Source: Parvicella tangerina | GTDB lineage: Bacteria > Bacteroidota > Bacteroidia > Flavobacteriales_D > Parvicellaceae | Reading direction: 5' to 3' | Assembly: GCF_907165195.1 (NCBI RefSeq) | Contig: NZ_OU015584.1 | Coordinates: forward strand, 2,170,001 to 2,234,000 | DNA: 64,000 bases | Notes under the pieces: generated by a model | Seen by the model: only the letters and a program-made list of their open reading frames with translations | Told to the model about the DNA's origin: nothing | Databases searched by the model: none | Made by a program: the position numbers and the translations under genes | Shown: in pieces, positions 32,691 through 37,376 of the stretch | How positions within the stretch are numbered: position 1 is the first letter of the stretch | Layout: each line of letters opens with the position of its first letter

Positions 32691-32960
32691 ATGTTTGATC
32701 AAAACCTTAGAATAAAAGATGTCAAGCAAGAAATCGGGCAACTGGTTCGATCATTACGAAAGCAAGAAGCAATATCACAAAATGAGCTTGCCGAGCGTCT
32801 TGATCTCTCCAGAATAACAATCCAAAATTTGGAAGCCGGAAAGAACTTTACGATAGACACTTTGTTGAAGGTGCTCCAGCACTTTGATTTACTCCATCAA
32901 TTGAATGACCTATTTACAGCGCTCAGCAATCAAAGCGATAACCCAACCTCTTTGTACTAA
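32691..32960 (+). CDS. hipB: HipB-like XRE antitoxin/repressor
   Basis: 89 residues. A helix-turn-helix of the XRE type is clear: LVRSLRKQEAISQNELAERLDLSRITIQNLEAGKN. The C-terminal tail is short, as in HipB-like antitoxins. The gene precedes hipA by 3 bp and would repress its own operon together with the toxin, as known for HipBA. The paired palindromes upstream support autoregulation. Composition is similar to the neighbourhood, so transfer is not proven by base content alone. Confidence 0.85.
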   Translation: MFDQNLRIKDVKQEIGQLVRSLRKQEAISQNELAERLDLSRITIQNLEAGKNFTIDTLLKVLQHFDLLHQLNDLFTALSNQSDNPTSLY

Positions 32961-32963
32961 GTT

Positions 32964-34232
32964 ATGGCAAAAAATGAGATCATCAATATCGTTTGTTTTG
33001 GTAAAGAAATTGGAAGACTTGGGTTTGATGAAAATGAGCTTAAATCATTCTTTCAGTTTAACCCATCATTTTTGGAGTCAGGTGAATACACCAATCTATT
33101 TCCGAATACAGGCATCATCAAAAGAGTGCCGCAGACGCAAGTGTTCAGTCAGTTTAACAATGACACCTTTAGAGGTCTTCCTCCTCAAATTTCTGATTCA
33201 CTTCCCGATATGTTTGGTAATATCATCTTTAAAAAATGGTTAGAAACAACCAATAAAGATTTTACCAAAATATCCGTTATTGAACAATTGGCTTATGTTG
33301 CAGACAGGGGAATGGGAGCACTTGAATTCAAACCTTCAAAAGAAATTCCAAATAGCGCTACAATTGATCTCTCAGAAATCATCTCAACATTGAAGGAAGT
33401 GCTTGATCAAAAAAAAGACACTACGGCTAAAGGACTGAATCACGAGGCTTTATTGAACATCTTTAAAATAGGCTCCTCTGCAGGTGGGGCAAGACCAAAA
33501 ATACTCGTTTCTGAAAATAAAAAAACAAAAAAAATCATACCTGGAGACCTTAATCATTCAGCAGAATACGAGCACTATCTGATCAAACTGTCAATTGATG
33601 AGAATCTAGATTATAGCAGGGAGGTAATTGAGTACTGTTATTACCTTACTGCCTGCGAGTTAGGAATTGCTATGATGCCTTCAAAGCTGATTGATCATAA
33701 GCACTTCGCTACACTACGATTTGATCGTCAAGACGGACAAAAAAAGCACACACTATCTGCAACAGGCTTAACGGGTTGGGATTTCATGACTCCGAAAGAC
33801 TCCAGCTATGAAAATCTCTTTGAGCTGGCACTCTTCTTAAAAGTTCCTCACAAGGATATGGAAGAACTCTTTAGGCGGATGGTCTTTAACCTGATATTTT
33901 GTAACACTGATGATCACTTAAAAAATCATGCTTTCATCTATAACGAAATAGAAAATAATTGGAACCTTTCTCCTGCTTATGACCTCACTTATGCGCTCAA
34001 CCCGTTGATCAACTATAAAAAAACAAGTAGAGCCTTGTCGATCAACGGAAAACGTGCTGACATTAACATGAGCGACCTATTACATCTAGCTGACACCTAT
34101 ACCGTTAAAAATGCGAAGAACGTAATAAAGGAAACTCAGGAACACATTAACTTCTGGACTAAAAAAATGAAGCATTTTGAAATTCCTACTCATATCATCG
34201 AAAGTATTCGTAATGACTTTACACTTTTTTAA
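32964..34232 (+). CDS. hipA: HipA-like kinase toxin
   Basis: 422 residues, full length. An N-terminal sub-domain (residues about 7-100, with the LFPNTGIIKRVPQTQVF and LPDMFGNIIFKKWLE segments) precedes the kinase core. The glycine loop GSSAGGARPK (170-179) matches the loop that carries the regulatory autophosphorylated serine in E. coli HipA. The catalytic loop is NTDDHLKN (314-321), and the metal-binding segment is SPAYDLTY (336-343). E. coli HipA phosphorylates glutamyl-tRNA synthetase GltX and causes growth arrest. All catalytic positions are present, so this toxin is probably active; its target is not known. It follows hipB by 3 bp. Confidence 0.85.
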   Translation: MAKNEIINIVCFGKEIGRLGFDENELKSFFQFNPSFLESGEYTNLFPNTGIIKRVPQTQVFSQFNNDTFRGLPPQISDSLPDMFGNIIFKKWLETTNKDFTKISVIEQLAYVADRGMGALEFKPSKEIPNSATIDLSEIISTLKEVLDQKKDTTAKGLNHEALLNIFKIGSSAGGARPKILVSENKKTKKIIPGDLNHSAEYEHYLIKLSIDENLDYSREVIEYCYYLTACELGIAMMPSKLIDHKHFATLRFDRQDGQKKHTLSATGLTGWDFMTPKDSSYENLFELALFLKVPHKDMEELFRRMVFNLIFCNTDDHLKNHAFIYNEIENNWNLSPAYDLTYALNPLINYKKTSRALSINGKRADINMSDLLHLADTYTVKNAKNVIKETQEHINFWTKKMKHFEIPTHIIESIRNDFTLF

Positions 34233-34322: not shown

Positions 34323-34943
34323 ATGAAAACACTTCTTTTTATCATTTTTGTAGCATCCAGTCTTTCGTTGTCTACCTCTGAAGCATCAACTAAAAAAGTT
34401 AAGGGAAATGTTCCAGCTTATTATAGGTGTGGCAATGCTCACCCAATCGATCGCACCTTGTTTACCCCTGAACGCGATAAGGTTCAATTTATCTTTGATC
34501 AAGACAAGTATCCAGACACTACTGATATTGGTTTTGTCAACTGGTTTCAAAAAGACGATCCTGATTACTTCACGGCCTATTTAGTGAATACGACAGATAC
34601 CACCTTCAACGCTGAAAGGCAAGACGGAAGTTTAATCATGATTCAGGAAGCACAAAATAAAGAAGGAGATTGGCAACCTATTGAGTATTGGATTTATAGC
34701 GGGTGTGGAAATAGCTACTTTAACCCATTAGTTCTAGAACCTCATGAATATGCCGAAGTTGCGATCGTTAAATATCATGGTAAATTTGAAACAAAAATGA
34801 GACTGAAATTTAAATACGATAAAAACATTATGTATTCCCAACCTTTCAATGGATCAATAAACCTGTCTCAATTCGAGAAAGAAACGGATGATGTTTACGG
34901 AATTTTGTATTCAGGGCCTGCCAATTATCTGGATGCAGAATAA
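34323..34943 (+). CDS. Secreted protein of unknown function
   Basis: 206 residues. A signal peptide (MKTLLFIIFVASSLSLSTSEAS) is followed by a mature part with YYRCGNAHPIDR, VNTTDTTFNAERQDGS, YWIYSGCGNSYFNPLVLEP and EIAEVAIVKYHGKF-like strands. Two cysteine-containing motifs could form a disulfide. The middle resembles beta-sandwich envelope proteins seen in marine Bacteroidota, but I cannot name a family. It ends 22 bp before the attC-like site. Confidence 0.5.
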   Translation: MKTLLFIIFVASSLSLSTSEASTKKVKGNVPAYYRCGNAHPIDRTLFTPERDKVQFIFDQDKYPDTTDIGFVNWFQKDDPDYFTAYLVNTTDTTFNAERQDGSLIMIQEAQNKEGDWQPIEYWIYSGCGNSYFNPLVLEPHEYAEVAIVKYHGKFETKMRLKFKYDKNIMYSQPFNGSINLSQFEKETDDVYGILYSGPANYLDAE

Positions 34944-34958
34944 TCTATTCCCTCGAAC

Positions 34959-35081
34959 TTTTAACGTCTGGCTATGGCGTGAGCCTTAGCGAGTGTACCG
35001 CTTTTGGTTTTGATTTACTTTGTAAAAAGTAAAAAAACAAAGTAGGAGAAACCATAAAATGCTCTATAGCCCTTGTTGTGT
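34959..35081 (-). repeat. attC-like recombination site (integron cassette end)
   Basis: Read on the minus strand the site runs from ACACAAC (35081-35075) to GTTAAAA (34965-34959). The inner arms GGCTAT and ATAGCC are inverted repeats. The outer AAC and GTT pair, while the following bases do not. That is the pattern of an integrated attC, in which the last bases belong to the flank. Its length of 123 nt is within the known attC range of about 57 to 141. The other half of the complementarity is found at the far end of the ORF (35771-35780). Confidence 0.5.
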
Positions 35082-35765
35082 TTAGTTTTTAATTCTTTTT
35101 CTTAGTACTTCTCTTATCGTTTTGGCGGTGTCAGTAATATATTCCTTACTTACCCCCCCTTCGACAACATACTTTTCAGAAGCCTTCCAATCATCTTGAT
35201 CTCTTAAAGAAATCGGTTCAGAATAGGCAATGTAGAAACCAGTACCTTCATAATCTCCAACTTCATCATTGTCAAGGACATCTCTAGAGTCTTTTATAAA
35301 GTCAATTAAATCCCCTGTGTAAACTTGTTGAATCATTTTTGCCCCTCTTAGAAATTGGCTATACACAATTTCACCTTCTAAAAATCCAGCAAAAAACATT
35401 GAGACATATTTTGCATTCTCATGGTCATCACATTTATCTATAATGAATAAAAGTTTTTCGCCTACTTTTAATTTAAAGTCTTGAGATGAATCAATTTTAT
35501 TTATCATCTTCTTTCTTTCTTCAGGGTCAATCGTTTTAATTTCAAAAAGAAAAGAGACTACTTTTTTTAAAAAAAGAATATCAGTAACCTTTACTGAAGT
35601 TTTGCCTAGTCCGACAATAGTGCCAAGAATAGGAATATCCTTTAATATTCCATCTTTTAAAACACTGTCTAAGACTACCTCTGACAATTCAATACTAACG
35701 TTTTGGAGGTCAGAATCTTTTATAGTCTGTTCGAAAGAGTTTGATATATTATTTATGTTGCTCAT
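35082..35765 (-). CDS. Cassette-borne protein of unknown function
   Basis: 227 residues. A Ser/Asn-rich N terminus is followed by a hydrophobic/helical segment about 33-72 (ILKDIPILGTIVGLGKTS, FLKKVVSFLFEI) and a long helical region with KLKVGEKLLFIIDKCDDHENAKYVSMFFAGFLEGEI. That helical part resembles a broad, uncharacterised family often found next to transposons or defence genes. No enzymatic motif is visible. The stop codon TAA lies immediately before the ACACAAC of the attC-like site and the ATG is 15 bp from the other boundary. A single ORF fitted tightly between the two boundaries is typical of an integron cassette. Confidence 0.65.
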   Translation of the reverse strand: MSNINNISNSFEQTIKDSDLQNVSIELSEVVLDSVLKDGILKDIPILGTIVGLGKTSVKVTDILFLKKVVSFLFEIKTIDPEERKKMINKIDSSQDFKLKVGEKLLFIIDKCDDHENAKYVSMFFAGFLEGEIVYSQFLRGAKMIQQVYTGDLIDFIKDSRDVLDNDEVGDYEGTGFYIAYSEPISLRDQDDWKASEKYVVEGGVSKEYITDTAKTIREVLRKRIKN

Positions 35766-35770
35766 TTAAT

Positions 35771-35780
35771 TAAACACAAC
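35771..35780 (-). repeat. Cassette 5' boundary, GTTGTGTTTA
   Basis: On the minus strand GTTGTGTTTA precedes the ORF. It is the exact reverse complement of TAAACACAAC at the ORF end (plus-strand 35075-35084), as expected for the two half-sites of a circularised cassette cut after the G. Confidence 0.5.
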
Positions 35781-35792
35781 GGATGATTATAA

Positions 35793-37376
35793 CTAAAACG
35801 GATCATCCTCATCGTCTCCTCCACCAAAGTTACTATCGAAGTCATCATTCTCAAAGTCATTATTCATCTTACTTGGAACTGTATAAGTTCCAAAATCTGA
35901 ATCAAAATCATCTCCTCCTTGAATACCCGCTAGTGCACTCGTGCTATAGTCATCTCCAAATGTATCCAGGTTATCAAACTTCGCAAATTTACCCACAAAC
36001 TTCAATCGGATATCTTCTAACGAACCATTACGGTGCTTGGCGATAATAATCTCTCCCTGTCCAGCACAAGGTGTATTATCAGGCCACACATCCAACTGGT
36101 AATACTCTGGGCGATAGATAAAACATACGATATCCGCATCCTGCTCAATCGCTCCCGATTCCCGAAGGTCAGATAGCATTGGGCGCTTATCTCCTCCTCT
36201 ACTCTCAACCGAACGACTTAACTGCGAAAGTGCAATGATCGGAACATCCAATTCTTTTGCGATTTCCTTGATCGAACGAGAAATCGTTGATATTTCCTGC
36301 TCTCGATTCCCTGCCGTTCCTCCTGCTGTCATTAACTGAAGATAATCAATCACAACAAGGTTTATATCGTGCTGTGCCTTCAGACGTCTACATTTCGCAC
36401 GCAACTCAAAAATTGAAAGTGCTGGTGTATCATCGATAAACAAAGGAGCCTCTGATAGCTTTTTTGTTCTTTCGAAAAACTGGTTGAATTTCTCTCTTGT
36501 AAAATTACCTTTTCGGATATCTTCTGCTGGTATCTCAGCCTCTCCAGAAATCAAACGATTTACTAACTGTAGCGAACTCATCTCCAAGGAGAATACAGCA
36601 ACTCCATGCCCATACTGAACAGCTACGTTTCTTGCCATTGAGAGCACAAATGCGGTTTTCCCCATACCAGGACGAGCAGCTAATACGATCATATCTGATT
36701 TCTGCCATCCAGAAGTAACTCGATCCAAATCCGTAAAACCAGTTGGAATACCACTAACGCCATCTTCCCGGTTCATCGCTACTTCAATCTCTTTACTTGC
36801 CTGATAAACCAAGTCTTTCATCGTATCGTAGTTCTTACGGATGTTACCCTCTGCTACTTTAAATAGAGCGCTTTCCGCATCATCCAAGAGATCAAATACG
36901 TCACTGGTTTCATCGTAGGCTTTGTTGATGATATCGCTTGAAACCTTGATCAGCTCTCGCAATATATATTTCTGAGAAATCACCCTTGCATGTGCCTCTG
37001 TATTCGCTGTAGACGCTACACGGTTGGTTAACTGAGAGATATAAAAAGGACCTCCCACTTCATCAATCACTCCTTTTTGTCTAAGACGTTGTGTTACCGT
37101 TAGAATATCTATCGGCTGCGACTCTCCAAAGAGCTCTTTGATTGCTTCATAGATTTTTTGATGTGATTCTTTATAGAACGAATGAGGTTGTAAAATATCA
37201 ATTACATCATTCACGGGATCCTTTTGAAGCATTAAAGCTCCAAGTACCGCCTCCTCCATATCAACCGCTTGTGGGGGGAGTTTCCCTCCATAAGCAACCG
37301 GGTTTTGAGCGGGTTTCCGAATTTTTCGGTTACCGCCTTGCCCAGCTTTCATTATATCTCCTATCTGTTCTGACAT
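35793..37376 (-). CDS. dnaB: Replicative DNA helicase DnaB
   Basis: 527 residues. An N-terminal DnaB domain with PPQAVDMEEAVLGALML (about 34-51) is followed by the RecA-like motor: Walker A ARPGMGKT at 234-241, the FSLEMS segment, Walker B VVIDYLQLM and the ISRSIKEIAKELDVPIIALSQLSR motif with the conserved glutamine. The C-terminal 60 residues are Asp/Gly-rich (DDEDDPF), a disordered acidic tail that many Bacteroidota DnaB proteins carry. It unwinds DNA at the replication fork. Its 3' end is 12 bp from the cassette boundary, so the cassette inserted just beyond dnaB. Confidence 0.95.
   Translation of the reverse strand: MSEQIGDIMKAGQGGNRKIRKPAQNPVAYGGKLPPQAVDMEEAVLGALMLQKDPVNDVIDILQPHSFYKESHQKIYEAIKELFGESQPIDILTVTQRLRQKGVIDEVGGPFYISQLTNRVASTANTEAHARVISQKYILRELIKVSSDIINKAYDETSDVFDLLDDAESALFKVAEGNIRKNYDTMKDLVYQASKEIEVAMNREDGVSGIPTGFTDLDRVTSGWQKSDMIVLAARPGMGKTAFVLSMARNVAVQYGHGVAVFSLEMSSLQLVNRLISGEAEIPAEDIRKGNFTREKFNQFFERTKKLSEAPLFIDDTPALSIFELRAKCRRLKAQHDINLVVIDYLQLMTAGGTAGNREQEISTISRSIKEIAKELDVPIIALSQLSRSVESRGGDKRPMLSDLRESGAIEQDADIVCFIYRPEYYQLDVWPDNTPCAGQGEIIIAKHRNGSLEDIRLKFVGKFAKFDNLDTFGDDYSTSALAGIQGGDDFDSDFGTYTVPSKMNNDFENDDFDSNFGGGDDEDDPF

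Follow-up and report, generated by a model that had tools for sequence, protein, structure and literature searches.

Bacteroidota probably carry a widespread and overlooked class of integron, with a Xer-like integrase that lacks the I2 (IntI-specific) helix and a palindromic attI site downstream of the integrase's own gene. The class also appears to place cassettes singly at sites resembling attI, among them the end of dnaB. Integrons are bacterial gene-collecting devices. One such single integron-type cassette, inserted outside any array, is very probably represented by a 227-aa open reading frame and its flanks (Table 1) in the 64-kb stretch of DNA that was analysed (the window). Judged from sequence, the associated integron class is the more important result, ahead of the lone cassette.

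A single cassette behind dnaB

Table 1. Features of the cassette region (window positions) and the integrase gene (chromosome positions).
Feature	Position	Strand	Remarks
Putative complete cassette, 815 bp	34965–35779	minus	complementary 10-bp ends and attC arms; sole detector match
5′ terminal repeat GTTGTGTTTA	35771–35780	minus	exact complement of 35075–35084; initial G is part of the dnaB flank
3′ terminal repeat TAAACACAAC	35075–35084	minus	complement of the 5′ repeat
Cargo open reading frame, 227 aa	35082–35765	minus	stop codon overlaps the 3′ repeat
attC-like site	34959–35081	minus	R″ ACACAAC; stem GGCTAT/ATAGCC; A.C mismatch behind the stem; R′ GTTAAAA
dnaB	35793–37376	minus	cassette 3′ of dnaB in the same orientation; orthologues in 3 congeners
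Target site, left half: GGATGAT-N14-ATCATCC, then G^TT	35780–35808	minus	starts in the last dnaB codons
G of the R′ box and target site, right half TTAAAA	34959–34965	minus	predicted from the sequence
Tyrosine recombinase, 381 aa	chromosome 3916379–3917524		directly before the 3918 kb array

The initial annotation of the window described a reading frame tightly bounded by exact reverse-complement ends, and this is confirmed: the cassette ends (R′/R″) are complementary at 10/10 bases, and the paired arms of the attC-like site are present. The boundaries that it had proposed are also supported, with crossovers after both G residues; the cassette starts with the T that follows one crossover G and ends with the crossover G of the R′ box. 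On the minus strand, the order is the dnaB stop codon (TAG), 12 bp, G^TTGTGTTTAATTAA-ATG, the open reading frame, and TAAACACAACAAGGGCTATAG...CCATAGCCAGACG^TTAAAA, where the carets mark the cassette limits. The sequence between dnaB and the open reading frame reads ATAATCATCC-GTTGTGTTTAATTAA-ATG, and TAAACACAAC is followed by AAGGGCTATAG...CCATAGCCAGAC-GTTAAAA.

The 227-aa open reading frame fills the cassette, with 14 nt ahead of its start codon, and the 3′ repeat opens with its stop codon, TAA. The attC-like site displays a 6-bp L″/L′ stem, spacers of 3 nt and 4 nt, the sequence CGTT and a proper R-box spacing. As a single strand, the attC region folds better than shuffled sequences on both strands (z = −2.4 and −3.1). 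One base does deviate from the classical R-box consensus, as was pointed out initially, but this is not unusual here: the identical end GTTGTGTTTA is found on two other cassettes, one in the genome's 1337 kb array and one in another genome (G291).

The gene at 34323–34943 ends 21 bp beyond the cassette. Farther along, still close to the cassette, an XRE-type repressor (32691–32960) is followed by a HipA-like protein (32964–34232), both judged from their sequences; the two are likely a hipBA-type toxin-antitoxin pair.

Comparison with chance and with the resident attC sites

A strict cassette detector was used, which required terminal repeats no shorter than 9 bp, AACA, a fixed-spacing attC stem of 6 bp, CGTT, and an open reading frame filling at least 70% of the cassette. 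It gave exactly one match in the window, the dnaB cassette, and 14 cassettes in the genome's own arrays. Neither 120 dinucleotide-shuffled versions of the window nor 345 kb of real non-array sequence from the same genome gave a match. These counts argue against an accessory gene that by chance has a 10-bp inverted repeat and a weak hairpin, as does a run of 17 bases common to the dnaB attC and the array attC at 3942020. Such a coincidence is extremely unlikely, even though a covariance model alone misses the dnaB site genome-wide.

This model was trained on 12 attCs from the genome's main array only, and the dnaB site was outside the training set. The initial annotation had envisaged a scan of the genome with an attC model. 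The array-trained model reveals eight attC clusters; the dnaB site is missing from its genome-wide list and is not significant genome-wide by the model alone. In a 1-kb search the dnaB site scores 16.2 bits (E-value = 0.0024). The score is only this high because the centre of the site differs; its arms fit. In most of the 16 resident attC arms that were compared, the 6-bp stem is followed by two A.C mismatches spaced five bases from each other, and the dnaB cassette carries the first of these in register. A DNA search with the attC region showed no relatives in the same genome apart from short pieces. Across 299 genomes, too, the matches were all short, and the eight inspected looked like AT-rich chance matches. 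The genome-wide counts rest on model searches and on individually retrieved stretches. A loose IUPAC attC pattern, also applied genome-wide, was uninformative (605/614 matches vs. 694/656 in a reversed control).

Resident attC clusters

The eight attC clusters lie on the chromosome at approximately 173–183, 1334–1341, 1522–1525, 1721–1724, 1873–1882, 2126–2135, 2580–2581 and 3918–3943 kb. The last of these sits directly behind the gene for the 381-aa tyrosine recombinase, and its successive cassettes start with GTTnnnnnn and end with the complement of that sequence. Such complementarity between the start and end of successive cassettes is the defining arithmetic of integron arrays. Because the genome has resident cassette arrays, the claim of a lone cassette is far stronger than it was from the window alone. 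Insertion at a secondary site, which the initial annotation had offered as a possibility, is likewise supported.

Judged from GC skew, the origin of replication lies near 0 and the terminus near 2.0 Mb. The eight arrays all run against the replication fork, and the dnaB cassette runs with it, opposite to all of them.

Introns of the IIC-attC type are known in or beside attC arrays. Four group II introns (Rfam RF02001/RF01998) have such positions here, in the retrieved stretches L026 (653–916), L063 (7100–7399) and L069 (11008–11307 and 13936–14235). In addition, four attCs (1340756, 1723259, 2126683 and 2135049, in stretches L063, L065 and L069) are broken by other DNA at the same point, CATAG/G, and three of the four show the same continuation, TACTGTGTCAAAAAACAACTATT.

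The Xer-like integrase and its clade

No integrase is present in the window, as had been stated. The genome does have a matching system; its integrase, however, is Xer-like and not a classical IntI. The 381-aa recombinase matches both XerA-type and integron-integrase models, below the cut-off of each, and scores 204.6 bits against the IntI model TIGR02249, for which the cut-off is 265. The IntI-specific insert near patch III is missing (21 residues, vs. 64 in VchIntIA). With a score below the IntI cut-off and no IntI-specific insert, the recombinase is not a classical IntI, and no other protein of the genome reaches that cut-off. Its best sequence matches are XerA/XerC/XerD proteins (NF040815; 4a8e, 1a0p), and its catalytic domain is Xer-sized. 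Unlike those enzymes, which are associated with a single dif site, it is found in association with cassette arrays and a palindrome.

About 23 full-length relatives of the recombinase, with 46%–53% identity, are found in many families of the order. In those 13 of 21 clade proteins (this one included) where both motifs are locatable, 89–90 residues separate the catalytic R from the H. A palindrome follows the stop codon of the recombinase gene in 17 of 21 loci examined, again including this genome, and is directly followed by GTT, which lies 34–63 bp past the stop codon (107 bp in one locus). In eight genomes, this one among them, the first cassette at the palindrome ends in an attC with a complementary end of 9–10 bp. 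Most of the other recombinase contigs examined end less than ~3 kb from the gene; a few loci have more flanking sequence, but no first cassette was recognised there. By its functional definition, an integron platform combines a recombinase gene with an adjoining attI-like site and attC array; this arrangement is seen in this genome and seven relatives.

Matching attC sites are present in about half of the 299 genomes sampled from the order, many of them with a recombinase beside the sites. Matches to attC occur in 92 of 126 genomes with a recombinase match and in 51 of 173 without one (Fisher p = 7e-14, ignoring phylogeny). Fourteen recombinase/attC pairs, chosen for sharing a contig, are 1–14 kb apart.

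In 8 of 20 integrase genes (L095 and L137–L155), the final codons coincide in part with TAnnTTTG, the promoter box of Bacteroidota, where ~0.016 would be expected in each. The box is possibly a Pc promoter; the conserved integrase C-terminus SPIDSLNL may explain part of the excess.

Insertion site and origin of the cassette

On matrices built from 17 attI-like sites, the target behind dnaB ranks in the top 0.6% of 15,671 GTT sites. This rank is owing to its right half-site; the left motif scores no better than 28% of sites. The inverted repeat of 7 bp that ends at the dnaB GTT is in the top 0.7% of sites, a feature spotted after the fact. The data suggest that the target is weakly attI-like and that the integrase saw a poor attI.

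Given the cassette anatomy, the resident system and the array-adjacent integrase, this integrase very likely seeded the cassette off-array. In the proposed recombination step, the Xer-like enzyme would have joined the attC of a circular cassette, by a crossover at G^TT, to the weakly attI-like site that overlaps the 3′ end of dnaB, and dnaB would have been left intact. The predicted empty site is ...ATCATCCG^TTAAAAGTTCG, also written ...TTATAATCATCCG^TTAAAAGTTCGAGGG..., and the excised form would be an 815-bp circle with the joint ...CCAGACG^TTGTGTTTA. Searches for an empty site by way of dnaB showed that congeners carry other genes behind dnaB, and no relative with the same flanks was found among the genomes searched; a search by way of the neighbouring gene at 34323–34943, itself accessory, also found none.

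The same region could be read as the remnant of a former array that has lost its attI and further cassettes here, with no secondary-site insertion. Several integrase-less clusters of the genome begin at attI-like palindromes, so that platforms without an integrase exist, and the 7-bp inverted repeat before GTT in the dnaB flank would fit such an origin. Except for one 14-aa piece, tblastn showed no integrase remnants before the integrase-less clusters. However, the left flank of the cassette is the coding end of dnaB, the right flank reaches the end of the neighbouring gene in 21 bp, and neither the covariance model nor the detector found a second attC in the window. A former array is therefore unlikely. 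Still less probable, indeed very unlikely, is some other small element that resembles a cassette, such as a transposon with short inverted ends or a module that depends on XerC/D. In favour of this reading, no recognisable cassette surrounds the cargo's relatives in other taxa; against it, no transposase and no second open reading frame are present, and attC arms with a spacer, CGTT and a mismatch of the resident type are foreign to these elements.

An off-array cassette remains the preferred reading. Since the centre of its attC has no relative in the genome, the cassette is probably not from a resident array; it was probably acquired from outside, i.e. a different strain or species, or is old. 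No TAnnTTTG promoter lies between dnaB and the open reading frame, and one is found within the dnaB end. The cargo lacks an obvious promoter of its own; its transcription probably depends on read-through from dnaB.

The cargo protein

Relatives of the cargo number 15 in genomes (Flavobacteriia, Bacteroidales, Clostridia and others) and two in viral contigs; among the 298 other genomes searched in the order, only 1 contains a relative. The sequence DGILKDIP is invariant in 18/18 aligned proteins, and the cargo belongs to an uncharacterised family marked by it. No Pfam, NCBIfam or PHROGs family was assigned to it, and no convincing family or fold match was obtained. The structure prediction is moderate (pLDDT 74), with the conserved N-terminal part poorly modelled, and gave no PDB match with an E-value below 0.4. 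For these two reasons no function is claimed.

Discussion

Insertion of cassettes at attG or secondary sites has been reported (Loot et al. 2024, Nat Microbiol, as cited in PMC11023631 and PMC12901181). As represented in those citing papers, attG insertion likewise places a single cassette outside an array in a bacterial chromosome; it is known for the classical IntI, whereas here the integrase is Xer-like and the target, at which a GTT is seen, is weakly attI-like. Elements with a single attC can be true positives (IntegronFinder 2.0, PMC9024848). The dnaB cassette resembles CALIN and single-attC elements in having an attC without an adjacent integrase, but differs from them in that eight clusters and an integrase coexist in one genome.

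Compared with the sedentary chromosomal integron of Vibrio cholerae, the system described here also has an array of short open reading frames, structured attCs of 60–200 nt and an adjacent tyrosine recombinase. Unlike the V. cholerae IntI, the recombinase has no IntI-specific insert and carries ~105 extra N-terminal residues; in addition, its gene points in the same direction as the cassettes, and the attI-like site is a palindrome downstream of that gene. In Vibrio-type integrons the attC bottom strands are described as lying on the leading template (PMC11023631), and the head-on orientation of the arrays here is the opposite.

The IntegronFinder 2.0 survey reported first only In0 elements in Bacteroidetes and then one complete integron, in Salinibacter (PMC9024848). 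The integrase rule of that program combines PF00589 with an IntI-specific profile (PMC9668308) and would probably miss the 381-aa recombinase. The reported scarcity of complete integrons in Bacteroidetes is plausibly a result of detection that requires the IntI-specific domain. No paper describing the Xer-like class was found in the literature searched; most subscription journals and all preprints are outside that search, and an earlier description is possible.

It has been proposed that gain of the I2 domain let a Xer-like ancestor recognise single-stranded sites, and handling of folded sites has been ascribed to this added domain of roughly 20 residues (PMC4792948). A Xer-like enzyme that stands alongside attC arrays without an I2 domain would make this idea directly testable, and the dnaB cassette would be a natural example of spread off the array.
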